A DNA stretch of 64,000 nucleotides from an uncultured Pelagibacteraceae bacterium (GTDB lineage Bacteria; Pseudomonadota; Alphaproteobacteria; Pelagibacterales; Pelagibacteraceae), in NCBI GenBank assembly GCA_902570915.1, contig CACGAB010000002.1:1-64000 (forward strand), written 5' to 3'. A model generated the notes under the pieces. The model was not told the DNA's origin. It was given only the letters and a program-made list of their open reading frames with translations, and made no database searches. The translations under genes and the position numbers were made by a program. The stretch's first letter is position 1, and every line of letters begins with the position of its first letter. Below are positions 2,174 through 31,898 of the stretch, in pieces.

Positions 2174-5100
2174 AAAAATTTTAGTCGTTGGAGCTGGCCC
2201 AATAATTATTGGTCAAGCTTGTGAATTCGATTATTCTGGAACCCAAGCATGTAAAGCATTAAAGGATGAAGGTTATAAAGTGATTTTAGTTAATTCGAAT
2301 CCAGCAACAATAATGACTGACCCAGATGTTGCAGATAAAACTTATATAGAACCAATTACATTAGAAATTCTTGAGATAATTTTAAGAAAAGAAAAACCCG
2401 ATGCAATTTTGCCAACCATGGGTGGCCAGACTGCATTGAACTTGGCAATGGAAGCAGAAAAAAAAGGTGTTCTTAAAAAATATGAGATTGAACTAATCGG
2501 TGCTAATTCAAAAGCAATCTCTAATGCTGAGGATAGGAAAAAATTTAGAAAAAATATGATGGATATTGGTATAGATTTACCAAAATCAAAAGTTGTTAAT
2601 AAATTTAATCAAGCCGCAAAAGTTTTAAAACAAATCGGTCTACCTGCAATTATTAGACCTGCTTTTACACTTGGTGGTCTTGGAGGTGGAATAGCTAAAA
2701 CAAAAAAAGACTTTTACAAAATAATTAAAAATGGATTACACGAGTCTCCATTAAGCCAAGTTCTAGTTGAAGAATGTTTAGAAGGTTGGAAAGAATTTGA
2801 AATGGAAGTTGTAAGAGATAAGAAAGATAACTGTATTATTATTTGTTCAATAGAAAATATTGACCCGATGGGAATTCATACAGGTGACTCTGTTACAATT
2901 GCACCAGCGCTGACTCTTACTGACAAAGAATATCAAGTAATGAGAAACGCATCTATTGCATGCCTTAGAAAAATTGGAGTTGAAACAGGAGGATCTAATG
3001 TTCAGTTTGCCATAAATCCAAAAAATGGACGAATGGTTATTATTGAAATGAATCCAAGAGTATCAAGATCATCCGCATTAGCATCGAAGGCAACAGGATT
3101 TCCGATTGCTAAGATTGCTGCAAAACTTGCTGTCGGTTACACTTTAGATGAATTAAAAAATGAGATAACAAAAGTCACTCCTGCATCTTTTGAACCAACT
3201 ATTGACTATGTGGTCACAAAAATTCCAAGATTTACTTTTGAAAAATTTTCGACCTCACCTGCAACTTTAGGTACATCAATGAAATCAGTTGGGGAGGCGA
3301 TGGCGATAGGTCGAAATTTTAAAGAGTCTTTACAAAAAGCATTGGTTTCTCTTGAAACAGGGTATTCAGGCTTAGATAGAGTTTTTAATATTAATAGAAA
3401 AAAAATAGAGAAAAAACTTAAAGAAAATATTCCTAATAAACTTTTACTTGTCGCAGAAGCTTTTAGAAAAAAGATCAATATAAAAAGAATTCACAATTTA
3501 TCGAAAATCGATCCATGGTTTTTAGAACAAATTAAAGAGATCGTTGATAACGAAAATAAACTTAAAAACAAAGGTGTTCCAAGAGACTTTGTTGAATTCA
3601 ATCGTATTAAATCTATTGGTTTTTCAGACAAAAAAATATCCGAATTAACCAAAATTCCTGAGAGTGTTGTAAGAAAAAGAAGAATGGCTTTAAAAGTATT
3701 ACCTGTTTATAAAAAAGTGGATACTTGTGCTGCAGAATTTAAATCTTTTACACCTTATATGTACTCAAGTTATCAAAGAAATTTTTCACTTAATTCAGAG
3801 TGTGAGGCAGAGCCAACTCAAAAGAAAAAAATCATTATCTTAGGAGGGGGTCCTAACAGGATTGGTCAGGGAATAGAATTTGATTATTGTTGTTGCCAAG
3901 CAAGTTTCGCCTTAAAAGATGCAGGATTTGAAACGATTATGGTCAATTGTAATCCAGAAACTGTATCAACAGATTACGATACAAGTGATCGATTATATTT
4001 TGAACCTCTTAAAGAAGAGTATGTTTTCAACATCATTAAGAAAGAGCAAGAGAAAGGAAACTTAATTGGAGTGATAGCACAATTCGGTGGCCAAACTCCT
4101 ATAAAGTTGGCTGAATTTTTATATCAAAACAAGCTTCCAATTTTAGGAACACAATACACTTCAATTGATCTTGCTGAAGATAGAGATCGATTTAGAAATC
4201 TTTTAAATAAATTAAAATTAAAACAGGCTGAAAGTGGAATTGCTAAAACTTACAAGCAAGCAATAAAAATTGCTGACAAAATTGGTTTACCTTTAATTGT
4301 AAGACCCTCTTACGTTTTAGGTGGAAGAGCTATGGAAATTGTATATGAGAAAAATGATTTAAAAAAGTTTGTTGAAGAAGCCTTTAAAGCTGCAGAGGAT
4401 AATCCAATATTAATTGATAAATTTATTAATCAAGCGATGGAAGTTGATGTGGATGCATTATCTGATGGTAAGGATGTATTTGTTGCAGGTATCATGCAAC
4501 ATATTGAAGAAGCTGGAATTCACTCTGGAGACTCGGCGTGTAGTCTGCCTCCTGTTTCAATTAAACCTTATTTGATTAGAGAAATAGAAAATCAAACAAG
4601 AAAATTAGCTTTAGCTCTTAAGGTTAAAGGGTTCATGAATATACAATTTGCAATTAAAAAAGATCAGATTTACGTAATTGAAGTAAATCCAAGAGCAAGT
4701 AGAACTGTGCCTTTCGTATCAAAAGCAAAAGGTTTACCTCTTGCTAAAATTGCCTCAAGAATTATGGCTGGTGAAAAATTATCTAAATTTAATTTAAAAG
4801 ATAAATCTAAAGGAATGTATGCTGTTAAAGAAGCTGTATTTCCATTTAACAAATTTCCAAATAGCGATTTACTTTTAGGTCCTGAAATGAAATCAACTGG
4901 TGAGGTTATGGGTTTTGATAAAAATTTTGGTATGGCTTTTGCTAAGAGTCAAATTGCATCTGCTAATTCTTTACCAAAAGATGGCCTTGCTTTTATTTCA
5001 TTAAAAGATGCACACAAAGATGAGGGAATAGATTTAGCAAAACAATTGATCAAACTTAAATTTAAATTGTGTGCTACTAAAGGGACTGCTGAATATATTA

Positions 5101-17171: not shown

Positions 17172-19325
17172 CTATTTTCCAATACTTATTACTGTTAAAT
17201 CATCATCCAGTTTTTGGTTTTTGCTTGTATTTATTACCATTCTAGTTATGTCACTTAATTGTTGTTTTGTATCTTTGTTGTAATTAGCCTCAATTATATC
17301 TATTGATCCATCTATACCTATTTCATTTCCTTTATCATTTAAACTTTCAGACAGTCCATCTGTAAATGCATAAAATCTTGAGCCATTTAGTTTCATCTTA
17401 TTAATATTATAAATACTTTTGTCTTTCTGTTTGATAACACCTAAGGGAGGCGCTGAACTTTGAAACTGTTCGTATTTTCCATTATCATTTCTGACAATTG
17501 CAGGCTGATGACCTGCGTTTACCCATCTAATTTCATCAGTAATTAAATTGTATTCACCAATTATTGAAGTTACAAACATTCCACCAGTTTTAGTATTATT
17601 TAAATCATTATTCATATGTAAAACCATTTCATCTGGATCTACTTTTGATTGAGATAAAACTTCGAATAAAGTAGATGCTTTTGCCATAACCATTCCAGCA
17701 TGAATACCTTTGCCAGCAACATCAGCAATTATAAAATAAATGCTATCATTGTGAGGATAGAAACTAAAGAAATCACCTGAGACCTCTCTAGCTGATAAGT
17801 TTATTCCGTACACAGGATAATTTTTTAAATTTCTTTTTGGTAAAAAGTTTTCTTGAACTTTTACAGCTAATTTAACCTCTTTAGAAATTCTTTCACGCCA
17901 CTTGTTTTTTTCCTCTTCTGTTGTTTCAAGCTTGCTCATTAACTTATTATAATAAAGACCAATCACACCACCAGCGGTAAACGGATCTTGAGGCCCCCTT
18001 ACTTTAAGATCTCCAGATTCTGATTGTTTGTTTAAAATTGAAATTAAATCATGCTCAATTGAAACTGCATTATGTTCTGCAATATTTAATCCTAATTCCT
18101 CTTGAACGGTACTTACTCTTAATGGATAAAATTTGTTTACAAAACTCAAAATTATAAATGATGAAATAAATGTAAATGATCCGATTGCTAAAATTCCTAT
18201 TAATTGAATTTTAATTTGTGAAAATCTATCAAGACCAGTATCTAAAATATTTAAATCGCTAAAAAACCCGACAGCTAAAGTTCCCCAAATACCAGCAGCC
18301 AAATGAACTGGAACAGCACCAACAACATCGTCAATTTCAAATTTGTTTAAAAGTTCATTTACAAAAATTGCAATAATCGAACCAATGATGCCAACAAAAA
18401 TTGCGGTGACAGATGTCATTGAATTACATCCTGCAGTAATTGCAACTAAACCTGCTAACGGACCTAAAATAATATAAAAAGGATCGGGTTTCTTGTGTTT
18501 AAAATATGAAATACCTAATCCAGTTAATAAACCAAAAGCAGCAGCTAAAAATGTATTAATTAAAATTAAAGGCACTACTTCATCCATTGCACCGTTACTT
18601 CCGCCATTAAAACCAAACCAACCAAACCACAAAATGAGTGTACCTAAAACAGCAAGTGGAAAACTAGATCCAGTAAATTTTCCTTTATTAGCATTGGAGT
18701 ATTTGCCAATCCTTGGCCCCAAAATAATTACTGCTGCTAACGCAATCCATCCACCTACAGAATGTACAATAGTACTTCCAGCAAAATCAACAAAGCCTAG
18801 ATCTGAAAGCCATCCAGTTGTTCTTACTGAACCAGTAACAACTAGTAACTGATCTACCGTATCATATTTTGAAAGATAGCTTGAAGACCACGCCCAATGA
18901 CCAACTATGGGATAAATTATTCCAGTAGCTAAAACAGTCATAATCAAATAACCATTAAATTTCATTCTTTCAGCAACAGCACCAGAAATAATTGTTGCAG
19001 CCGTTGCAACAAACATTGCTTGGAATACAAAGTAAGTCATGTACTCCGCTTTGTTAGTTTTAAAAAAAAATAAATCAGTGCCAAAAAAACCGTAATAAGA
19101 AGTACCAAACATGATACCAAAACCAAATATCCAAAAAATAACTACAGATACTCCAAAGTCTGCAGCATTTTTAAGGGCAACATTAATGCTATTTTTATGC
19201 CGTGATAAACCAGTTTCCATGCACATGAAACCCGCTTGCATTATAAAAACTAGAATTGCGCAATCTATCACCCATAAAGTATCAATGTTACTTGTTAGTA
19301 CATCAATTACTTCTTGGGGCATCAT
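17172..19325 (-). CDS. ammonium transporter (Amt/MEP/Rh) fused to C-terminal SpoIIE/PP2C Ser phosphatase
   Basis: N-terminal ~400 aa are Amt: 'DCAILVFIMQAGFMCMETGLSRHKNSINVALKN', 'FAGSTIVHSVGGWIALAAVIILGPRIGKY', 'FGWFGFNGGSN', 'VPVHLAAGIWGTLAVGFFSD'. C-terminal ~240 aa: 'VKVQENFLPKRNLKNYPVYGINLSAREVSGDFFSFY...FIIADVAGKGIHAGMVMAKAS...GGMFVTSIIGEYN...WVNAGHQPAIV...FYAFTDGLSES...LDDDLTVISIGK'. One continuous 717-aa ORF. Confidence 0.95.
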   Translation of the reverse strand: MMPQEVIDVLTSNIDTLWVIDCAILVFIMQAGFMCMETGLSRHKNSINVALKNAADFGVSVVIFWIFGFGIMFGTSYYGFFGTDLFFFKTNKAEYMTYFVFQAMFVATAATIISGAVAERMKFNGYLIMTVLATGIIYPIVGHWAWSSSYLSKYDTVDQLLVVTGSVRTTGWLSDLGFVDFAGSTIVHSVGGWIALAAVIILGPRIGKYSNANKGKFTGSSFPLAVLGTLILWFGWFGFNGGSNGAMDEVVPLILINTFLAAAFGLLTGLGISYFKHKKPDPFYIILGPLAGLVAITAGCNSMTSVTAIFVGIIGSIIAIFVNELLNKFEIDDVVGAVPVHLAAGIWGTLAVGFFSDLNILDTGLDRFSQIKIQLIGILAIGSFTFISSFIILSFVNKFYPLRVSTVQEELGLNIAEHNAVSIEHDLISILNKQSESGDLKVRGPQDPFTAGGVIGLYYNKLMSKLETTEEEKNKWRERISKEVKLAVKVQENFLPKRNLKNYPVYGINLSAREVSGDFFSFYPHNDSIYFIIADVAGKGIHAGMVMAKASTLFEVLSQSKVDPDEMVLHMNNDLNNTKTGGMFVTSIIGEYNLITDEIRWVNAGHQPAIVRNDNGKYEQFQSSAPPLGVIKQKDKSIYNINKMKLNGSRFYAFTDGLSESLNDKGNEIGIDGSIDIIEANYNKDTKQQLSDITRMVINTSKNQKLDDDLTVISIGK

Positions 19326-20887: not shown

Positions 20888-21187
20888 ATGACTTATAAAG
20901 TAACAGAAGATGGAAATATCAGTACAGTATTTCTTAATGGCGAAATAGACATGGACGTGACCGAAAAAGCAAAAGAGGTCATTTTACCTATAGTAGAATC
21001 TGGAAAAGAAGTTCATTTAAACTTAAAAGATGTTTCCTACATGGACTCGTCAGGAATTTCTGTTTTAATTGAAAGTCATCAAAAAGCTTTAGAGCATAAT
21101 ACTAAAGTCATTGTTAAAGAGGTAAGTAAATCTGTTTTAAAAGTAATTATGATGGCAAAACTTGAACAGATTTTAAACTTGGAATAA
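20888..21187 (+). CDS. STAS-domain anti-sigma factor antagonist (RsbV/SpoIIAA-like)
   Basis: 99 aa; 'TVFLNGEIDMDVTEKAKEVILPIVESGKEVHLNLKDVSYMDSSGISVLIESHQKAL' with the DSSGI phosphorylatable-Ser motif. Confidence 0.92.
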   Translation: MTYKVTEDGNISTVFLNGEIDMDVTEKAKEVILPIVESGKEVHLNLKDVSYMDSSGISVLIESHQKALEHNTKVIVKEVSKSVLKVIMMAKLEQILNLE

Positions 21188-21600
21188 TGAATATTGAAGA
21201 GTCTAAAGATTTCCTTGTAAGCACTGCCAGCTTGAAAGAAGTGAGAACTTTTTCTAGAGAAGTATTTGAAAAAATAAATTTACCCCAAGAACAAAAAGAT
21301 GAACTTGTATTAGCAATCGCTGAGGCTGCACAAAATATTGTTAAACACGCTTATAAAGATGTTGCAGAAACATCAGACAGAATGGAAATTAAAATTTCAC
21401 TTAAAGATAGTGACTTAGAGATAGGTTTCTTTGATAAAGGCAAAGCAGTAATACCAGAAAATATTCAACACAGAAAATTAGATGACATTAAACCAGGTGG
21501 TCTTGGTACTTTTTTTATTAAGCAAATTATGGATGCAGCGGTTTTTAAAAAAGACCAAAAAGAGTGGGTAAACCATTTGGTGCTTACCAAAAAAATTTAA
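21187..21600 (+). CDS. anti-sigma factor / serine-protein kinase, HATPase_c (RsbW-like)
   Basis: 'ELVLAIAEAAQNIVKHAYKD' N-box, 'LEIGFFDKGKAV', 'GGLGTFFIKQIMD' G-box; coupled to the STAS gene (start overlaps its stop). Confidence 0.9.
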   Translation: MNIEESKDFLVSTASLKEVRTFSREVFEKINLPQEQKDELVLAIAEAAQNIVKHAYKDVAETSDRMEIKISLKDSDLEIGFFDKGKAVIPENIQHRKLDDIKPGGLGTFFIKQIMDAAVFKKDQKEWVNHLVLTKKI

Positions 21601-22835
21601 CCTATCAACGCTCCAACGTTGAAAATTGGTGAATACATTGCAATCATTAATCCACCGATCATAACACCCATAAACACAATCATTATCGGTTCAATTAAAC
21701 TAGACATATTATCAACTGCACCATCAAACTCTTCTTCATAATACATCGCAACAGAACCAAACATTTCATCTAGCTGACCTGTTTGTTCACCAACAGAAAT
21801 TAATTGACTAAAAGTCGGGGGGAAGAGTGGTTCTTTTAAAAATAATTTTGTCAAAGTATCTCCAGAAAAAACTCCCTTCTTAACATTTTCCAAAGCTTCT
21901 GTTACAACCACATTATTACTTACTGATTTTGCAATCTCTATACTTTCCAATAAATTTACTCCGGCTGCACTCAAATTTCCCATTATCAATGAAATTCTTG
22001 CAAGTAATGACTTTAGTATTAAGTCACCAAATACTGGCAACTTTAAAATTTGTTTATGCCATCTATATTTAATCATTTCATTTTTAGAAGTTAAATATCT
22101 AAATGCGATAATCGAGGTAATTATAGTTATTAATAACACCATTCCACCTGTGCCTCTTAAAAAGTCACTCATAGACATAATAACAGCTGTTGGAGTTGGT
22201 AAATCTAAACCCATTCCAGCATACATTTTTGCAAATACTGGAACGACTTTTATTAACATAAATGCACTAACAGTTATTGCTACTGAAAACATTATAGCCG
22301 GATACATCAATGCAGATTTTATTTTCTTTTTTATTTTTTCTTTTTTTTCTAAAGAGTCGACAATCTTTAATAAAAACACATCTAATTTACCACTGGCTTC
22401 ACCTGCTTTTATAAGATTACAATAAACATTATCAAAATATTCAGGATATTTTTCAAAACATTTAGATAGAGTTACACCCCCTTCAAGGCTTTTTCTAATA
22501 TCCTCGATTACTTCTTTTATTGCTGGACTTTCTAACTGATCTCTTAGCATGGCTAAAACTTCGAGAATTGGTAAGCCTGCTTTAACCATGGTTGCAAACT
22601 GCTTTGAAAAAATTAAGACATCCTCTACTTTTACTTTTTTCTTACCAAAAGAGAAACCCCCACCACTTTTTGACTTAGTTTTAGTTTCTCCCTTTTTCTT
22701 TTTTGATCTTATTAAGTTTGTGATTATAATTTTTTGTTCTTTAAGCTTATGTGATGCCTCTTCCTGATTGATAGCTTCAATATCACCCTCTACATATTTG
22801 CCATCAGCAATGCCTTTATAAGTAAATGCTTCCAT
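21597..22835 (-). CDS. pilC: type IV pilus inner-membrane platform protein PilC (GspF family)
   Basis: 'DVLIFSKQFATMVKAGLPILEVLAML', 'LISVGEQTGQLDEMFGSVAMYYEEEFD', 'LSSLIEPIMIVFMGVMIGGLMIAMYSPIF'-like GspF motifs. Confidence 0.95.
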   Translation of the reverse strand: MEAFTYKGIADGKYVEGDIEAINQEEASHKLKEQKIIITNLIRSKKKKGETKTKSKSGGGFSFGKKKVKVEDVLIFSKQFATMVKAGLPILEVLAMLRDQLESPAIKEVIEDIRKSLEGGVTLSKCFEKYPEYFDNVYCNLIKAGEASGKLDVFLLKIVDSLEKKEKIKKKIKSALMYPAIMFSVAITVSAFMLIKVVPVFAKMYAGMGLDLPTPTAVIMSMSDFLRGTGGMVLLITIITSIIAFRYLTSKNEMIKYRWHKQILKLPVFGDLILKSLLARISLIMGNLSAAGVNLLESIEIAKSVSNNVVVTEALENVKKGVFSGDTLTKLFLKEPLFPPTFSQLISVGEQTGQLDEMFGSVAMYYEEEFDGAVDNMSSLIEPIMIVFMGVMIGGLMIAMYSPIFNVGALIG

Positions 22836-22856: not shown

Positions 22857-24608
22857 TTATGAGGCTGATAAAACCCGCTCGTATTCTCTAAAATTCAGCT
22901 CTCCATTAGCAATTAGCCTTCTTCCCATATCTTGCATAGTTTGAAAACCCTCTTTAATTGCTATTTCTCTCAATTCAGGTGTTGTTGCTTTTCTAAGTAT
23001 TGCCTCTTTAACTGGTTTTGAAACAACTAAAATTTCGTAAAGACCTTGTCTACCCTTATAACCAGTATCTTTACACTTAGGACAGCCTTTCCCTTTAAGA
23101 GCTTTAACTCTAGAAGCTAATTCTGCTGTAAAGCCAAGATCTTGCAAAACTTTTGGATTAACATCATCATCAGGAACTCTACAATCTTTGCAAGTCCTTC
23201 TTGCTAATCTTTGTGCTAAAACCATTTGGCATGCAGCACTAATTAAATAATCAGGAGTGCCCATGTTTTGTAATCTAGTTATGGTGCTTGGAGCATCATT
23301 CGTGTGCAAAGTACTAAATACTAAGTGACCAGTGAGTGCAGCTTTTAATCCGATATCAACTGTTTCCTTATCTCTCATCTCACCAACAAGTATTATTTCT
23401 GGGTCTTGTCTTAAAAAAGATCTCAATGCCGCAGCAAAACTTAATCCAATGTCATCTTTAATCTGGACTTGTCCTACACCATCTAGCTCATATTCAACAG
23501 GATCCTCAGCTGTTAGAATATTTAAGTGAGGCTTACTCACCTCTTTTAAAATACTATAAAGAGTTGTTGATTTACCAGATCCTGTTGGTCCAGTTACTAG
23601 TATTAAACCTTGAGTTCCATGAATTGCTTTTCTTAAATTCTGTAAATCAACATCTTCAAAATTTAATTGCTCTAAAGTAATGTCACCAGCATCTTTATTT
23701 AAAACCCGCATTACTATTCTCTCATTATTAGCTGTCGGTAAAATCGATAAACGTAAATCAACAACTTTACCATCTATCTTAAAATTTATTGCTCCATCTT
23801 GAGGTAATCTTCTTTCAGCAATATCTAATTTACCCATTATTTTAAATCTGGTAACAACCGCTCCATAATTATCATGAAGAAATTTTTTATATTGCTCTTG
23901 CTCTTGGAGCATTCCGTCTAATCTATATCTAACTCTTGAGCTAAATCTGTATGGTTCGATATGAATATCACTAACACCTGATTTAATAGCTTCTGCTACA
24001 ACTGCTGTACTAAATTTTATTACTTCCGACTCATTTTCAATTGCTTCAATATCTTCTTCTGGAGCTTTTTCTAAAACTTCGCCCGCTTCACCTAAATCAG
24101 AGTCAAAGGTTTTTGTTTTCTCTTTATTCTCTTGTCTAATTGTTGCAGTTGTAACGTCTCCACTTTCTGATTGAAGTTTTTCAATAAACTCTGAAATTTG
24201 AGAAACTTTTGCAGCATGTAGCTCTATATTTTTTTTTGTAATTGCTTTTAAATTTCTCATAAGACCAAGCTTTGAACTATCTGAAATTGCAATGTGAAGA
24301 GTTTTACCCTCAACTTTAAAAGGCGCTACAAAATTTACGTTTATGTAATTTGAAGGCAGCACACTTTTAATTTCATCGCTTATTTGAATTTTAGAAAGAT
24401 CTACAATTTCAAGACTTTGTTCTTTTACTAAAACATCTAAAATTTTATTTTCGTCAGTTAACTTAAGTTCAAATACTGCATCTATTTGAGATTTATTTCC
24501 CTCAGTACTTATCTTTTTAATGTTAATTAAATCTTTTCCAGAAATAATATCATTATCAATTAATACATTGATTAAATTTATTTCACTTTCTCTACTTATT
24601 TTTAGCAT
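22857..24608 (-). CDS. pilB: type IV pilus assembly ATPase PilB (GspE family)
   Basis: Walker A GPTGSGKSTTLYSIL, Asp box ILTAEDPVEYELDGVGQVQIKDDIGLSFAAALRSFLRQDPEIILVGEMRDKET, C4 motif CKDC...CPKC. Confidence 0.97.
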   Translation of the reverse strand: MLKISRESEINLINVLIDNDIISGKDLINIKKISTEGNKSQIDAVFELKLTDENKILDVLVKEQSLEIVDLSKIQISDEIKSVLPSNYINVNFVAPFKVEGKTLHIAISDSSKLGLMRNLKAITKKNIELHAAKVSQISEFIEKLQSESGDVTTATIRQENKEKTKTFDSDLGEAGEVLEKAPEEDIEAIENESEVIKFSTAVVAEAIKSGVSDIHIEPYRFSSRVRYRLDGMLQEQEQYKKFLHDNYGAVVTRFKIMGKLDIAERRLPQDGAINFKIDGKVVDLRLSILPTANNERIVMRVLNKDAGDITLEQLNFEDVDLQNLRKAIHGTQGLILVTGPTGSGKSTTLYSILKEVSKPHLNILTAEDPVEYELDGVGQVQIKDDIGLSFAAALRSFLRQDPEIILVGEMRDKETVDIGLKAALTGHLVFSTLHTNDAPSTITRLQNMGTPDYLISAACQMVLAQRLARRTCKDCRVPDDDVNPKVLQDLGFTAELASRVKALKGKGCPKCKDTGYKGRQGLYEILVVSKPVKEAILRKATTPELREIAIKEGFQTMQDMGRRLIANGELNFREYERVLSAS

Positions 24609-26147
24609 CTATAGAATCCTTGGTGCGATAAAAACTAATAATTCATCCATATTATCAGTATTCTGTTTTCCTTTAAATAAATTTCCAACAACCGGAACAT
24701 CTCCTACACCAGGAGTTTGTTGCTTGCTGTTAGTTAAAGCATTCTTTTTAATACCACCTATAACTACAATATCGCCATCAGCTATTAATAATTTTGTGCT
24801 AATTTCCATTTTATTGATTGCAGGATCTCCTGGATTAGATCTATTAGGAGTATCATTATTAACTTGGATATCCAAAAGAACGTTTCCATCTCCAATAATG
24901 CTTGGTGTAACAGTCATTTTTAATGCTGCTTCTTTAAAAGAAGTATCTGACCCTTCTGCTGAACTAGAAGCGTAAGGTATTTCTTCACCTTGTGTGATAG
25001 TTGCGACCTGATTATCTAAAGTAAATATTTTTGGATTAGATATAGTTTTTCCAAGCCCCTGGGACTCAAGTGCAGTTATTTCGGTCTTTAAAACTGCTGA
25101 TCCTGTCTTCTTTAATATTCCAATACCACTTGTCTTACCGGCTGCTCCAAAATTTGTTATTGAGTCAGTAGTGGAGCCTATAACAGCAGTAGCTGCACCT
25201 ATGTCTGCATCTCCTGATGATCCTGCTTGAACACCACCTATTATCTCACCCTGTCTTCTGTAGTATCCGCCAAGAGCAGTGCCTAAAGCTCTTTCAAAAT
25301 CAGAATTAGCCTCAACAATAAAAGCTTCAATTAAGACTTGTCTTGTTCTAACATCAATTTCTTTAATTATTTTATCAACTACGTCTAAATCTTTTTCTTT
25401 TCCTCTTGCAATAATCGATCTTGTAGTTTTTTCTTCAGTAATTTGAACTAAAGAGATTCCACCATCAACTGCTTTAAATAACTCATCTAAAGTAGCTTTG
25501 GCCTCAGCAGGACTTATGTAATAGAGTCTAAATATTTCTGAAATTAATGGCTCAACAGAGTCCTCTAATTCAACTTTTTTTCTAACAGCAGAAGCTCTTG
25601 CTGATTTTGTAGATTCTTGTTGAGTTAAATTTGATGGAGAATGAACTCTTATTAAATTACTTTGAACATCAAAATCAGCTGCATAGTTTTTTAGATCTAA
25701 AAGCGCATTAAAAGCTTTGTCCCACGGAATATCAATCAATTGTGCTGTGACCGAGCCGGCAACTTCATCACCTATGAGGATATTTATCTCACCTGCTTTT
25801 GCCATCAGTTCTATTGCAGTTCTATAATCTAGATTTTTAAAATTAAATGAAATATTTTGCTTTAATAATTTATATTCGTCACCAATTAGCAAATAGTTTC
25901 TTGCTTTTTGTGAAGAAATTTGTTTTCTTTTACCAAGTTTAATTACGTCAGCCTCAGCTGGTTTTGGCCCCATCTTAGCAGTTTTATCAACTTCTATTTT
26001 ACCTTTCTTCTTGATGTCATCTTTTATTAAAGGAGTGTTGTGTTTAAATTTTTTTGTTCCAAATTTACCGTCAGTAGCACAACCACTTAAAAGCAAAGCT
26101 GAAAAAATGCTAAATAAAATAAAAAATTTAATATTTTTAAAATTCAT
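24609..26147 (-). CDS. pilQ: secretin PilQ/MshL-like outer-membrane lipoprotein
   Basis: Lipobox LLSGC; secretin motifs 'VLIEAFIVEANSDFERALGTALGG', 'TISNPKIFTLDNQVATITQGEEIPY', 'TPGVGDVPVVGNLFKGKQNTDNMDELLVFIAPRIL'. Confidence 0.93.
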   Translation of the reverse strand: MNFKNIKFFILFSIFSALLLSGCATDGKFGTKKFKHNTPLIKDDIKKKGKIEVDKTAKMGPKPAEADVIKLGKRKQISSQKARNYLLIGDEYKLLKQNISFNFKNLDYRTAIELMAKAGEINILIGDEVAGSVTAQLIDIPWDKAFNALLDLKNYAADFDVQSNLIRVHSPSNLTQQESTKSARASAVRKKVELEDSVEPLISEIFRLYYISPAEAKATLDELFKAVDGGISLVQITEEKTTRSIIARGKEKDLDVVDKIIKEIDVRTRQVLIEAFIVEANSDFERALGTALGGYYRRQGEIIGGVQAGSSGDADIGAATAVIGSTTDSITNFGAAGKTSGIGILKKTGSAVLKTEITALESQGLGKTISNPKIFTLDNQVATITQGEEIPYASSSAEGSDTSFKEAALKMTVTPSIIGDGNVLLDIQVNNDTPNRSNPGDPAINKMEISTKLLIADGDIVVIGGIKKNALTNSKQQTPGVGDVPVVGNLFKGKQNTDNMDELLVFIAPRIL

Positions 26148-26643
26148 TTGCCTCTTTTATTTGGTTTTTAAAATTCATAATTATGTACTGGTTATCATCA
26201 GCTTTTTCGAAAACTGCTCTTTTTATACTAACGTCAACAAGTTTCACACCACTTAAGACTTCTTCAAATAATTCTACCGTCATAAATTCACCATTGTCAT
26301 CAACTAAAGTAATGAAACTATTATCTTTAGCAGAAAATGATCCAACGAGTTTATACGATCTTAGTTTTACTGCACTTGATGTAGGTGTTACCTCTGTTAC
26401 TATGTCACTAGCTGTTGACGCATCACCAGCAAATGGATCATTTAAAGGCAACGGTTCTTCTTTTACTACAATTTGACCTGTTTCTTTACTAATGTTTTCT
26501 TGTTGTGATGCCTGCTTCTCTTTAACTTGTTTATTAATCTCTTTTGCTTTTTCAACAATGTTTTGATCGTGACTATCTGACATTACTTTCTGTGAGAAAG
26601 TAATAACTATTAAAACCAAGAATATGAGTCTAAAAAAATTCAT
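26137..26643 (-). CDS. PilP-like type IV pilus assembly lipo/periplasmic protein
   Basis: Position between PilO and PilQ; 'NDPFAGD...VKLRSYKLVGSFSAKDNSFITLVDDNGEFMTVEL' is PilP-like. Confidence 0.7.
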   Translation of the reverse strand: MNFFRLIFLVLIVITFSQKVMSDSHDQNIVEKAKEINKQVKEKQASQQENISKETGQIVVKEEPLPLNDPFAGDASTASDIVTEVTPTSSAVKLRSYKLVGSFSAKDNSFITLVDDNGEFMTVELFEEVLSGVKLVDVSIKRAVFEKADDNQYIIMNFKNQIKEANEF

Positions 26644-27331
26644 CTGGTAAACCCACTATTGTTAATACACCAGTTACTGCTACCGTACTGGTTGTATCCC
26701 CTTTTATCACTTTAATTGTTTCTTTGTCAAAATTTAACATTTTTTGAGACATAGCTACTTGTCTCTTAAACTTAATATATCCAAGAAAATTGCCCTTTAT
26801 TTGAAAATTTACAGGTATTCTGTAATACGCAATATTTTTTTTAACACTGGTGTCAGCTTTCTTCTTTCTTTTTCTCTTTTTCTTCTTTTTCTTTGTATCA
26901 GTAGAGGCAATAGCTGATGCCTTTGTTATAGGCTTTGGTTTGCCCTTTTCAATCTTTGAAATAACTAAGTTGTTTATCCCAGCGAATTCACTAAGTGTCT
27001 CATAAAGACCTTCCACCTCAGCTTTACTGTGAAATAAAGTAGAATATTGCTCGTATCGAGGAGTAAGTTTTTTTATTTTAGCTTTACTAGCTTTAATTTC
27101 TTGGTTCATCTTTGTTATCTCAGCTTGTTTTTTTTGCATGTTATCCAACTGAGCTTTTTTCTTCTCAACAATTGGGCTTAAAACCGCGTAATAAATAATT
27201 AAAAAAACAATTACTGATAAGAATCCAATACCAAATTTAATTAGAATTTTTTTATCTATAGATTTAATTTTAGCTTTTACACTTTCTAGGTTGATGTTCT
27301 TTAAATCTAAACTAATATTCTTTAAATCCAT
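26630..27331 (-). CDS. pilO: PilO-like type IV pilus assembly protein
   Basis: Single N-terminal TM, coiled-coil, 'LYETLSEFAGINNLVISKIEKGKPKP...YYRIPVNFQIKGNFLGYIKFKRQVA'; operon position. Confidence 0.85.
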   Translation of the reverse strand: MDLKNISLDLKNINLESVKAKIKSIDKKILIKFGIGFLSVIVFLIIYYAVLSPIVEKKKAQLDNMQKKQAEITKMNQEIKASKAKIKKLTPRYEQYSTLFHSKAEVEGLYETLSEFAGINNLVISKIEKGKPKPITKASAIASTDTKKKKKKRKRKKKADTSVKKNIAYYRIPVNFQIKGNFLGYIKFKRQVAMSQKMLNFDKETIKVIKGDTTSTVAVTGVLTIVGLPDEFF

Positions 27332-27334
27332 AAA

Positions 27335-29668
27335 TTATCCCTTAACATCCACAAAAACTGTAAAGTTCTTTTTAATATCAGCAGAGTCCCCAGCCTTACC
27401 TTTGTAATTCATTTTACCTAATGATGCTTGTACAACTAACTGCTGCGCCCCTAAATTATTAATTAACTTCAAAATGTCTTGATCGGTAGCAGCCTGACCT
27501 TTTATAATTACTTTATTTTTGCCATTGTATTCAACTGACGCAAATTTTATTCTTTTAGGAACACTCATAGCAATTTGAGCTAAAACTCTATAACTATTCT
27601 GCTTATTTGATTTTAAACTTTTACTCAATTTTAAGGTATTTGAAATTATAGCTAACTCTTTTTTAATTTTCTTTTGTTCAGATATTTTAGCTTTATGAGT
27701 TTTTAGGACAGTATTGTAATTAACTAGTTTTTTATTGTATGATTGGATGTTCCAGAAAGATAAGCCAAAAAGAATTATATATATTGCAGCTACTGAAGCA
27801 GCTATACCTTTGAAAGCAAAACTTGAAAAAGCTTTCATCTTTTTTTCTTTAATCATGCCTTTTCTGTTAGGAAGTAAGTTTATATTTTTAACGGCGGTAA
27901 CAAATTTATAATAGCCAAATACATCCAACTTTCTAAAAGCAAGACCTACAACTGACGATAGATATGATCTGTTAATTAAATCTACTTTTTCTTTATTTTG
28001 CTGAGGGATTAACAATCCATCAATTGGATCAAATAAGTTAAAGCCAACATTTAATAAACCCTTTCTAAAACTTGACAAAAAATCCTCAACATTTTTTAAA
28101 TCCGAGACTACTTTTATGTTTCTTATTCTTTTCTCATATTTGGTCTCAAAATCTTGAACAGCTTGTTTTACTTGAGTTAAAAATCTTCTTACTAATGCCT
28201 CTTTTTCTTCAACATCCTGTGATTCTAATAATATTTTTCTATCTTGGCCTCTTAAAAAAATATCAGTAATTATTGGATTATTGTCGTATAAAATCATTAA
28301 ATAATTTTCATCTAAACCAAATTCCAAAACCGCAGTAAGATTTACATCGTCAGCTTTATTGGAGATTTGATTAATTTGATCGACAGCAGATTTTAATGCA
28401 AAACATTTTACATCAATTATAACTGGGTTGAGATTACTTTGCTTGATTATTGAGGTATAATTATTTATGTCAGCCAATTTTGAAGCAACAAACAAAATAT
28501 CCATTGTGTTAGCTTTTTCGTTTCTATTAATAACTTGATGGAAAATTGAATAATCGTCTAAATTATCAGTTAACTGAACTAAATTTTCCCAAAGTGAATT
28601 AGTTTCAATTGCTTTTTGCAATTCCTCTTCTTTCATCAACGGTGCTGTTACAACTCTAATAATTGCGCTTGTGACAGGTATAGCAATAGCAGCATTTAAA
28701 GTTGTGATTTTAGATTTTTGTAATGCAATTGTAAGTTCTGCTCCTAATTTTTCTCCATTATCTAAAACATTTGCGTCATCTGGTAAGTCAACTGGGTGCG
28801 CATAAAATTTATCCAATACCCATTGATTTGATTTATTAGTTGATACTTGGGCTAATCTTATTTCTTTGTTTGTAATTTCAACTCCAACAATTTCCTCTCC
28901 TTTAACTGCTGACTTTCCAATTTTAGATTTAAAAAAGCTAGTAACTTTTTTCGAAAGTTCATTAGTTTTGAGTGATGGTTTGGAAACTGAACTTTTTTCT
29001 AAGAAGCTTGGCTTTTTAAATTTAATATTTTTTATATTGTCTAAAAAAGCAAATTTTGATTTTTTATTTTCTTGTTCGTCCTCTGTTGATTGATTTAAAA
29101 TAGAAGCGTCAATTTTAGGTTCGGTTAACGTAGTTGTTTGACTCGTTTGTTCTTTATTAACAATTTGAGTTGAAGTTTCCGGTTGAACAGATGTTTCTTC
29201 AGTTTTAACAGGTTGCTCTTGAATTTCTTTTTCTTTTTCTTTTCCCGCAACAACGTCGTCAAACCATTTTTCTAAAATTGGTATTGCTTCCTCCAAATTA
29301 GGAGTTCCTGATGATGAAATTTTTTGTTTTCCATCATGATAAAGTCTCCCAACCCAATTTTTTGATTTTAATTCACCTTTGTATTTGTCTTGTCGGATAT
29401 AAATATGTAACCTTCCGTCTTTCTTATGGATTACCTCATGTGAGGATCCATTATCTTCATCTTTTTTTTCACTAGATGTATCTAAATTTTGTGTTTGATC
29501 ATTATTTTCGTTATTATTTTGATTTGATTCAGAGACAGGATCATTTTTTTGATTATCTACACCCTCAGGTTGATTATTTTCATCAACTTTAGATTGATTC
29601 TCAGTTTCTGACTGAGACCTTTCCTCTTCAATAATTTTTTTTTCGTCGTCTTGATCGTTCATATACAA
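27335..29668 (-). CDS. PilM-PilN fusion protein with acidic N-terminal extension
   Basis: 777 aa: acidic/Gln-rich ~80 aa N-terminus, a small 'KNWVGRLYHDGKQKISSSGTPNLEEAIPILEKWFD' segment, PilM-like actin-fold domain (EEIVGVEITNKEIRLAQVS...), then PilN-like 'INLLPNRKGMIKEKK...' with TM, coiled-coil and periplasmic domain. Confidence 0.85.
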   Translation of the reverse strand: MYMNDQDDEKKIIEEERSQSETENQSKVDENNQPEGVDNQKNDPVSESNQNNNENNDQTQNLDTSSEKKDEDNGSSHEVIHKKDGRLHIYIRQDKYKGELKSKNWVGRLYHDGKQKISSSGTPNLEEAIPILEKWFDDVVAGKEKEKEIQEQPVKTEETSVQPETSTQIVNKEQTSQTTTLTEPKIDASILNQSTEDEQENKKSKFAFLDNIKNIKFKKPSFLEKSSVSKPSLKTNELSKKVTSFFKSKIGKSAVKGEEIVGVEITNKEIRLAQVSTNKSNQWVLDKFYAHPVDLPDDANVLDNGEKLGAELTIALQKSKITTLNAAIAIPVTSAIIRVVTAPLMKEEELQKAIETNSLWENLVQLTDNLDDYSIFHQVINRNEKANTMDILFVASKLADINNYTSIIKQSNLNPVIIDVKCFALKSAVDQINQISNKADDVNLTAVLEFGLDENYLMILYDNNPIITDIFLRGQDRKILLESQDVEEKEALVRRFLTQVKQAVQDFETKYEKRIRNIKVVSDLKNVEDFLSSFRKGLLNVGFNLFDPIDGLLIPQQNKEKVDLINRSYLSSVVGLAFRKLDVFGYYKFVTAVKNINLLPNRKGMIKEKKMKAFSSFAFKGIAASVAAIYIILFGLSFWNIQSYNKKLVNYNTVLKTHKAKISEQKKIKKELAIISNTLKLSKSLKSNKQNSYRVLAQIAMSVPKRIKFASVEYNGKNKVIIKGQAATDQDILKLINNLGAQQLVVQASLGKMNYKGKAGDSADIKKNFTVFVDVKG

Positions 29669-29681
29669 TTTAAAATTTTTT

Positions 29682-30017
29682 CTCTAACACAATTTAACGA
29701 ATCTCTAACACAAAATATTACTTTAGTCTAACACAAAATTATAAAATATATGTTCAAAATGAGCTAAATAGTAAAAAAGTCAACAAAATAGCCATTTTTT
29801 ACAAATTAAAATAATTTATAAATATAAAATTTTAAATCTAGATTTAAATAAACTCTAACACAAATCATAAATATTTAATTGTGTTAGAGTATTTCTATTT
29901 TGTGTTAGAATATTCAATTTTAATTTTTTATTAAAAAAGTCAATAAAATCAACAAAAAGTAAAATTATTCTAAATTTGGAATTTTTTGTGTTAGAGTTTT
30001 AGATTTATGTGTTAGAG
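29682..30017. repeat. array of eight short repeats CTCTAACACAA(AAT): four direct on the left, four inverted on the right, with a central hairpin-capable pair
   Basis: Plus-orientation copies at ~29682, 29703, 29727 and 29853; reverse-complement copies (TTGTGTTAGAG) ending at ~29889, 29910, 29996 and 30017. Central pair CTCTAACACAAatcataaatatttaaTTGTGTTAGAG. Confidence 0.9.
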
Positions 30018-30086
30018 TTTAATATTTTCACTCTATTACACTCAAAAATTGTAAATTCTATATTTAATTTATGAAAAATTTATTTA

Positions 30087-30113
30087 CTCAATTAAAAATT
30101 GAGCTTTTTTTTT
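30087..30113 (+). terminator. candidate intrinsic terminator (plus strand)
   Basis: CTCAATT-AAA-AATTGAG perfect 7-bp stem followed by C and T9. Confidence 0.55.
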
Positions 30114-30215
30114 AAAAAAAAATAGTTTTTTTCTCTTTTTAAGCGAAAATTAAATAATAATTGAATTTCTTAAATAATTTTTAAAAATAATTTTCTTAAA
30201 ACACATTTTTTTATT

Positions 30216-30527: not shown

Positions 30528-31898
30528 TTATGCTCCGTCTACAACAACAATAGTCAGATCATCTTTTTGAATACGACCAGACTTAATTATATCCTCAACA
30601 ATTTTATTTAATCTTTCGTGATTAGGTGTTTGTTGATACTTTGTAATATAATTTTTGAAACCATCGGACTCTAACATGTTACCTTTAGGATCTTTCATTT
30701 CTGTTATACCATCAGTGAATACATACATCGAACTTTCAGAAAATTTTATTTTTGTCTCTTTGTATTTAATCTTCGACATAATTCCTAAAGGCGGACCTGC
30801 TTCACTAAAGTTTGTAAATTTTCCATCTTTAGAATGAATTAGTGGTGGTTCATGTCCTGCGTTAGCAAGTAGTAATTCTTTTTTATTACTGTCGTAAATA
30901 CCTATAAGCATTGTTACAAACATTCCACGTGCAGCTGTTTCACAAATTTCAGAATTAAGTAAGTTTAATAAATCAGCAGCAGAAAAAATTGTTTTACTTA
31001 AGCATCGATAAAGACTCGAAGCCTTTGACATTAAAAGGGAAGATTTAATTCCTTTACCAGATACATCTGCAACACCAAAACCAAATTTACCATCACCTAG
31101 ATCAGAAAAATTATAAAAATCTCCTGATACAACTTTTGCTGGGATGTTTATTCCTGCTATAGGAAAGTTTTCTTTTTTATTTTGTGACAACAAAGTTTTT
31201 TGTATCTCACCAACAATTTCAATTTCTTTTTGCATTCTATTCTTATCAACTAAATCTTTTGCCATCTTAGCATTGTTTATTGCTAATGCAGCTGGACCAG
31301 ACAAAGTTTCTAAAAGTTTTCTATCATTCTCTTCAAAAAGTTTATTGTTAGTTTTTTTATTTAAGCAATGAATAACGCCAATACATTCATCCGATACAAT
31401 TAAAGGGGAACATAGAACTGAATAAGTTGTAAAATTTGTTTTATTATCTAAATCGAAATAAAATTCTGCAATTTCTCTAATATCTTTTCTAACATCACCA
31501 ACTCTAATACATTTTTTCATGACTGCAGCTTTTCCCATAACTCCTTGAGTAATTGGGATTTCAAAATCTTCAAGATATGCTTGATGTTTTGAAGCAATAC
31601 ATTGGAACGATTGATTTTTTTTATCTATTAAAAAAATATTTGCTGCTTGTGCATTAATTCTTTTTATAATTAATTCTAATGAGTTATTAAGTGTTTCTTT
31701 TAAATCAAGAGACATTGCAAACTCTTGATTCATTTTAGTTACCAGCTCTAAATCTTTACTGCTAGTGTCATCTATTTTGATCGTTTCCTTTTTTTTTACT
31801 CCAAAAAACATGTTATTTATAAATTGATATTCGTTATTTTTTTGATAATTTTGAAATTGATGGAAATCATTATTCATGCGCCTAATTTCTATTTGCAC
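30528..31898 (-). CDS. GAF domain protein with C-terminal SpoIIE/PP2C Ser phosphatase domain
   Basis: GAF-like 'ALELIIKRINAQAANIFLIDKKNQSFQCIASKHQAYLEDFEIPITQGVMGKAAVMKKCIRVGDVRKD'; SpoIIE 'ETQ...ISGDFYNFSDLGDGKFGFGVADVSGKGIKSSLLMSKAS...GMFVTMLIGIYD...NAGHEPPLI...MYVFTDGITEM...KDDLTIVVVDGA'. Confidence 0.92.
   Translation of the reverse strand: MQIEIRRMNNDFHQFQNYQKNNEYQFINNMFFGVKKKETIKIDDTSSKDLELVTKMNQEFAMSLDLKETLNNSLELIIKRINAQAANIFLIDKKNQSFQCIASKHQAYLEDFEIPITQGVMGKAAVMKKCIRVGDVRKDIREIAEFYFDLDNKTNFTTYSVLCSPLIVSDECIGVIHCLNKKTNNKLFEENDRKLLETLSGPAALAINNAKMAKDLVDKNRMQKEIEIVGEIQKTLLSQNKKENFPIAGINIPAKVVSGDFYNFSDLGDGKFGFGVADVSGKGIKSSLLMSKASSLYRCLSKTIFSAADLLNLLNSEICETAARGMFVTMLIGIYDSNKKELLLANAGHEPPLIHSKDGKFTNFSEAGPPLGIMSKIKYKETKIKFSESSMYVFTDGITEMKDPKGNMLESDGFKNYITKYQQTPNHERLNKIVEDIIKSGRIQKDDLTIVVVDGA

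Follow-up and report, generated by a model that had tools for sequence, protein, structure and literature searches.

A helically phased site array upstream of pilMN in SAR11 bacteria and its putative reader, an integrase-type domain of PilMN

No other group of bacteria is as abundant in the surface ocean as SAR11, whose members have streamlined genomes with few regulators. For the SAR11 group, a median intergenic spacer of 3 nt has been reported (PMC2704228). In the stretch of Pelagibacteraceae DNA analysed here (64,000 nucleotides, called the window throughout), an intergenic gap of 547 bp (29669-30215) lies upstream of a type IV pilus operon and holds an array of short repeated sites, raising the question of which protein reads these sites and what it does there. 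Under starvation in darkness, Ca. P. ubique HTCC1062 reportedly becomes abundantly piliated and up-regulates pilA (PMC3090418), a response that offers a physiological setting for testing pilus control. A long intergenic region kept in streamlined genomes, together with a DNA-binding head on a pilus protein, would offer a testable answer on how SAR11 pili are controlled. Neither the array, nor a DNA-binding domain in SAR11 PilMN, nor the two as a module had been described in the open-access papers that we searched.

An array of short sites in front of pilMN

The gene next to the array, pilMN (27335..29662, reverse strand), encodes a 775-aa platform protein of the inner membrane in which PilM and PilN are fused, with PilM_2 (PF11104) and PilN (PF05137) domains, as also laid out in its AlphaFold model; this length is counted from an ATG at 29662, with a TTG at 29668 as an alternative start. 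Downstream in the same operon are pilO, pilP, pilQ and pilB (22857..27331, reverse strand), in an order that is kept in relatives, and after pilB comes pilC (21597-22835). This arrangement, with PilM and PilN domains ahead of pilO-P-Q and pilB-C, identifies the locus as a type IV pilus platform. Close to the operon, we also observed AmtB, an ammonium transporter, joined to a phosphatase domain of SpoIIE type (17172-19325, reverse strand); taken with a HATPase (anti-sigma-kinase-like) protein (21187-21600) and a GAF-SpoIIE protein (30528-31898), it is suggestive of a partner-switching circuit that links pili with nitrogen status.

A motif scan of the window located all eight copies reported in an earlier note on this DNA, as CTCTAACACAA-type sites within 336 bp (29682-30017). 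Closest to pilMN, three sites lie on the forward strand: S1 (CTCTAACACAA, 29682..29692) lies ~20 bp ahead of where pilMN translation starts, a position kept across loci, with S2 (CTCTAACACAA, 29703..29713) 21 bp from S1 and S3 (GTCTAACACAA, 29726..29736) 23 bp from S2. A central group begins 127 bp (12 turns) from S3 with C1 on the forward strand (CTCTAACACAA, 29853..29863), followed by its inverted partner C2 (29879..29889, reverse strand) and, 21 bp from C2, by C3 (TTCTAACACAA, 29900..29910, reverse strand). Finally, a distal pair on the reverse strand comprises D1 (29986..29996), 86 bp (8 turns) from C3, and D2 (CTCTAACACAT, 30007..30017), 21 bp from D1. The middle pair at 29853 and 29879 forms an 11-bp inverted repeat, as the earlier note had described. 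The further degenerate copy reported at 30031, CTCTATTACACTC, does exist, yet its sequence departs from the family core and we excluded it from the members of the array.

The CTCTAACACAA 11-mer, allowing at most one mismatch, occurs exactly eight times in the 64-kb window, always within 29682-30017, while shuffled versions of the window gave a mean of 1.55 matches and reached eight in 0 of 100 shuffles. Genome-wide, in an assembly of 948 kb in 37 contigs that is ~72% complete, all seven exact copies of TCTAACACAA fall in the intergenic region upstream of pilMN, and a looser pair search found no second close pair of sites elsewhere in the same genome. The repeat is thus not a 12-mer at background frequency, a possibility the earlier note had raised against itself; its suggestion of an uptake- or packaging-type signal gains no support, since the motif is found at a single locus only. 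An origin of replication or a parS site is not favored either, as the local GC skew tracks gene strand and the array site differs from DnaA boxes and parS.

We scanned GTDB species genomes (264 Gb) for two direct copies spaced 19-23 bp apart. This pattern matched at least 119 stretches, and among the matches listed nearly all are from Pelagibacterales (SAR11). Within the genus, direct pairs occur in 67 of 399 genomes, while the control pattern gave no matches. The array lies directly upstream of pilMN in nearly all of the ~120 named-genome loci among the matches listed. Its neighbor on the far side varies, and may be a 100-aa ORF with a GAF-SpoIIE phosphatase, a divergent pilT, pilY1, or others. 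Pair matches outside SAR11 (UBA1177, a gut uncultured bacterium, a horse-faeces Bacilli bin, and a Chloroflexi groES region) were taken as chance, because they have only two or three exact copies, lack pil genes and the PilMN domain described below, and come from a 264-Gb scan. A separate match labelled Gammaproteobacteria NAT271 has a SAR11-like pil locus, and its bin is probably mislabelled.

Across the Pelagibacteraceae, we identified 118 distinct arrays with at least five copies, recurring upstream of pilMN. With F and R for the two orientations, the usual layout is F-21-F-23-F, ~127 bp, a central group (either F-25-R-21-R or F-21-F-25-R), 86 bp, and R-21-R. In these 118 arrays, spacings between sites of the same orientation cluster at 11, 21, 32, 53, 86, 97, 117, 128, 139, 150, and 161 bp, with a period of ~10.7 bp and a mean resultant of 0.84 (a statistic that ignores relatedness); the F-to-R step takes two sizes that differ by ten bases. 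Spacings that are multiples of ~10.7 bp place the sites on one face of the helix. Moreover, among 645 distinct copies the information is essentially confined to CTCTAACACAA, while the spacers drift. Overall, core-only conservation, drifting spacers and helical phase are the signature of a protein that binds one face of the DNA.

The orientation rule reported earlier, with left copies pointing one way and right copies the other, holds in the window, but relatives do not all follow it: in some the middle copy is flipped, and some clades (L118 and L131, for example) have copies in a single orientation only. Copies closest to the start codon are reversed in some divergent clades, indicating that a fixed operator geometry is not universal. 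Two loci (L187, 496-1337, and L234, 1316-2160; genomes G170 and G443) have arrays of 12-15 copies that appear partly duplicated; G443 combines 15 copies with the PilMN domain described below. The copies do not decay freely in relatives, the second way in which the earlier note had thought it might fail, as the array is kept upstream of pilMN and the 11-mer is nearly invariant. The proposal of a multi-site operator for pilus regulation is well supported by an array that is helically phased and stands upstream of pilMN essentially throughout SAR11 loci.

The N-terminal domain of PilMN and its integrase relatives

Which protein reads the array? The earlier note overlooked the likely DNA-binding partner, the N-terminal domain of PilMN itself. 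The PilMN N-terminus consists of an acidic tail, a compact domain of ~62 aa, a disordered linker of ~110 aa (AlphaFold), and then the PilM core, in a protein that the AlphaFold layout predicts to be membrane-anchored. Mean pairwise identity among long-form PilMN proteins is 24% in the tail, 80% in the ~62-aa domain, 28% in the linker, and 65% in the PilM core. The domain (aa 76-138; 29249..29437, reverse strand) is our candidate for an integrase-type, arm-binding-like reader of the array. AlphaFold models it as strands followed by one helix, both alone (pLDDT 83.5) and within PilMN, and Foldseek matches include integrases and the P4-like Int 3rmp, none at E ≤ 0.001. Searches with the domain gave nothing meaningful in Pfam at a threshold as loose as E ≤ 10, no PDB match by sequence or profile, no match to lambda Int by hhalign, and no homologues in phages, plasmids, or IMG/VR. 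Separately, the domain region (29200-29437, reverse strand) matches weakly (E 7e-4) to phrog_17986, a group of small phage proteins of unknown function that may be a related family of stand-alone DNA-binding proteins.

A profile search with the domain revealed a second context, the N-terminus of proteins of 423-425 aa in two SAR11 genomes (L227 and L228, the two such proteins found). Both are integrases of the tyrosine recombinase type (PF00589 and PHROG), and the window's domain is 59% identical to the integrase N-terminus (E 2e-22). In the reverse direction, a profile built from the two integrases retrieved PilMN N-termini in 59 other genomes. The domain-bearing int genes adjoin tRNA-Leu(CAA) and are flanked by sites resembling those of the pilMN array: L227 has CTCTTACACAA at 1914 (forward) and 3402 (reverse) with a one-mismatch copy at 3413, and L228 has CTCTTACACAA at 1785 (forward) with one-mismatch copies at 3274 and 3285. 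These counts were matched in 0 of 200 shuffles, and the repeats also surface de novo among the 8-mers common to the L227 and L228 flanks. Some pilMN arrays in turn contain the variant CTCTTACACAA, and in lambda, too, annotated Int-binding sites lie on either side of int. We also noted that the surrounding SAR11 genomic island (L227, 1100-3580; L228, 980-3450), set at tRNA-Leu(CAA) and containing the domain-bearing tyrosine recombinase, includes a serine recombinase of the resolvase family and, beyond int, a tRNA-like fragment.

The domain thus occupies the N-terminus of tyrosine recombinases whose genes are flanked by cognate-type sites of ~10-11 bp, and we apply the label "arm-binding" on the basis of this place, the predicted topology, and the flanking sites, with curated families (Pfam, PDB profiles, and lambda Int by hhalign) giving no sequence match. 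What speaks most strongly for the domain as reader of the sites is that one domain family stands beside near-identical sites in two unrelated settings.

The array also follows the domain within the genus. In our PilMN search, genus proteins fall into two forms, a long form (mostly ~700-860 aa) and a short form (~570-600 aa), with the short form lacking the N-terminal ~210 aa. Scored by exact pattern, direct-repeat arrays occur in 66 of 71 genomes with the long N-terminus and in 0 of 67 others (p = 6e-34, a value that ignores shared ancestry and is not to be taken literally). Three of the five long-form exceptions have arrays of variant layout (G170, G252, and G191), and the other two end at contig edges (G301 and G361). 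Two of the 67 array-less genomes (G335 and G211) are contig-edge truncations and uninformative, and nine short-form and two diverged loci that we read individually contain neither the domain nor a clustered array. Arrays are also present in those other genera of the family that have the domain. A PilM-core tree places the short forms within the domain-bearing ones and needs no more than two to three changes. At one locus (L134, 132-185), domain and array occur with a PilM core that groups with short, array-less forms; constraining this core to its domain-bearing relatives was only marginally rejected (p-AU 0.047). This placement is suggestive of a joint move of domain and array, possibly by transfer.

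Two alternatives bear directly on this association. In one, another trans-acting regulator, such as a response regulator or a LytTR- or AraC-type protein, recognizes the array, and the presence of the PilMN domain is incidental. The 21-bp direct-repeat period with its GTTAG core does resemble LytTR- or AraC-type sites, but none of the 398 genus genomes searched has the LytTR domain (PF04397), with a positive control search, and we therefore disfavor a LytTR-type operator. Moreover, the co-occurrence of domain and array, and the presence of the same motif beside integrases with the same domain, run against any incidental role, and we regard a separate regulator as quite improbable. In the other alternative, the array is the remnant attP arm of an integrated element, kept for recombination and not for regulation. 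The match between the motif and the SAR11 integrase flanking sites, and the domain common to both, would fit such an origin. However, no integrase gene was found beside the array in the window, PilMN has only PilM and PilN after its head and no C-terminal recombinase part, and most array genomes searched lack such an integrase. The layout, kept genus-wide and in further genera of the family, is also unlike that of an inert remnant, and we consider this reading highly improbable.

We favor, at a probability of roughly 70%, a reading in which the array consists of arm-type sites recognized by the N-terminal domain of PilMN, a homologue of SAR11 integrase N-termini. The N-terminus of an ancestral element's int and its arm sites most probably landed before pilM and stayed there.

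The pilMN promoter and proposed modes of action

Aligning 59 distinct loci on S3 revealed a conserved promoter-like element just upstream of it, with a TTRACC-like hexamer, a 17-bp spacing, and a TATAAT-like hexamer. In the window, the putative -10 element of the pilMN promoter is the TATAAT at 29738..29743 (reverse strand), assigned by this S3-aligned conservation; the -35-like element is weak, and a simple consensus promoter scan did not list this promoter. The predicted transcription start falls in S3, which places S2 and S1 in early transcribed sequence; the start codon follows ~20 bp past S1. The array thus overlaps a conserved promoter-like element, in agreement with the earlier proposal that the copies overlap the pilMN promoter region. 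A second conserved block (29751-29763, reverse strand; CCYA-N4-TGARCA-like in relatives) sits between the putative -35 and -10 elements and may be a site for another factor.

The position of the start also bears on the structured-RNA reading listed in the earlier note, taken here as a pilMN leader folded from the inverted copies. The region folds as a single strand more strongly than its shuffles (z -4.8), but a strong fold is expected of any inverted-repeat array and we do not take it as evidence. With the start in S3, most of the array would be untranscribed. In addition, the single-orientation copies of L118 and L131 cannot pair, same-orientation sites follow the helical phase of DNA, and Rfam gave no match in the window, nor in this region even at an E-value of 1. 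Together, these observations make an RNA leader very improbable.

Since S3-S1 cover the predicted start and the early transcribed region, binding there would block transcription. In the favored reading, PilMN carries a domesticated integrase-type arm-binding domain and is probably an autoregulator of its own promoter. If PilMN does bind the array, we judge autorepression its likeliest mode, at somewhat better than even odds. In such a scheme, the PilMN domain would bind CTCTAACACAA, and several PilMN heads on one face of the DNA would join the S, C, and D groups into a single nucleoprotein complex. Occupied S sites would repress the operon, creating a negative feedback that eases as PilMN enters pilus machines, and the C and D groups would assist repression by looping or wrapping.

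Because PilN is membrane-anchored, a bound locus would be held at the membrane for as long as it is bound, and the main rival to autorepression is accordingly a tether. Here, the PilMN head would hold the chromosomal locus at the membrane pilus base with little effect on transcription, for positioning, for coupling synthesis to assembly, or for competence. The predicted membrane anchor and the ~110-aa disordered linker from head to PilM suit such a role, as do the eight phased sites over 330 bp, which exceed the needs of a simple operator, and the C and D groups, which stand far upstream of the predicted promoter. Yet a tether could sit anywhere, whereas the array is found immediately upstream of pilMN in all clades, and S1-S3 overlap the conserved promoter-like element; we consider a pure tether unlikely. 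We also entertain, as a tentative idea that is on the unlikely side, an assembled pilus base whose several PilMN heads grip the phased array in an intasome-like manner; the membrane machine would then have hold of its own promoter and sense its own copy number or assembly state.

If autoregulation by PilMN is borne out, the locus would clearly exemplify, in a bacterium, the retention of an integrase-type DNA-binding domain and its sites as a regulatory module. It would also be a case of a structural pilus protein that reads DNA, with part of the pilus machine controlling its own gene. Should the pilus base itself grip its promoter, gene control would have been built from domesticated integrase parts within a pilus motor.

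Comparison with known systems

LytTR regulators such as AlgR, ComE, and AgrA resemble the PilMN system in their direct repeats of ~21-bp period, and AlgR and ComE act on pili or competence. They differ in that the family is absent from all 398 genus genomes searched.

The system also resembles tyrosine recombinases with N-terminal arm-binding domains and arm-type sites, of the lambda Int and Tn916 Int type. These have a small N-terminal domain, as does PilMN, whose domain is modelled as a beta sheet with a helix and is homologous to the N-terminus of SAR11 PF00589 recombinases. In both systems the sites are non-palindromic, ~11 bp long, arranged as direct and inverted copies, and in helix phase. 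In PilMN, however, PilM and PilN replace the core-binding and catalytic domains, the sites lie in a promoter region and not in an att site, and the domain shows no detectable sequence similarity to lambda Int.

ToxR and CadC are membrane-anchored transcription factors, and like PilMN, for which DNA binding by the head is proposed, they carry a cytoplasmic DNA-binding head on a membrane-spanning protein. Their heads are winged-helix domains and they are dedicated regulators, whereas PilMN is a structural part of a machine. PutA is a bifunctional autoregulator that links location or activity to its own expression. The proposed PilMN system would resemble such a multi-operator autoregulator, assembled from the arm-binding module of an integrase. 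PutA shares with the proposed PilMN system a DNA-binding domain fused to a protein with another job and several operators in front of its own gene. PutA, in contrast, is an enzyme with a ribbon-helix-helix domain, while PilMN is a pilus platform protein with an integrase-like domain.
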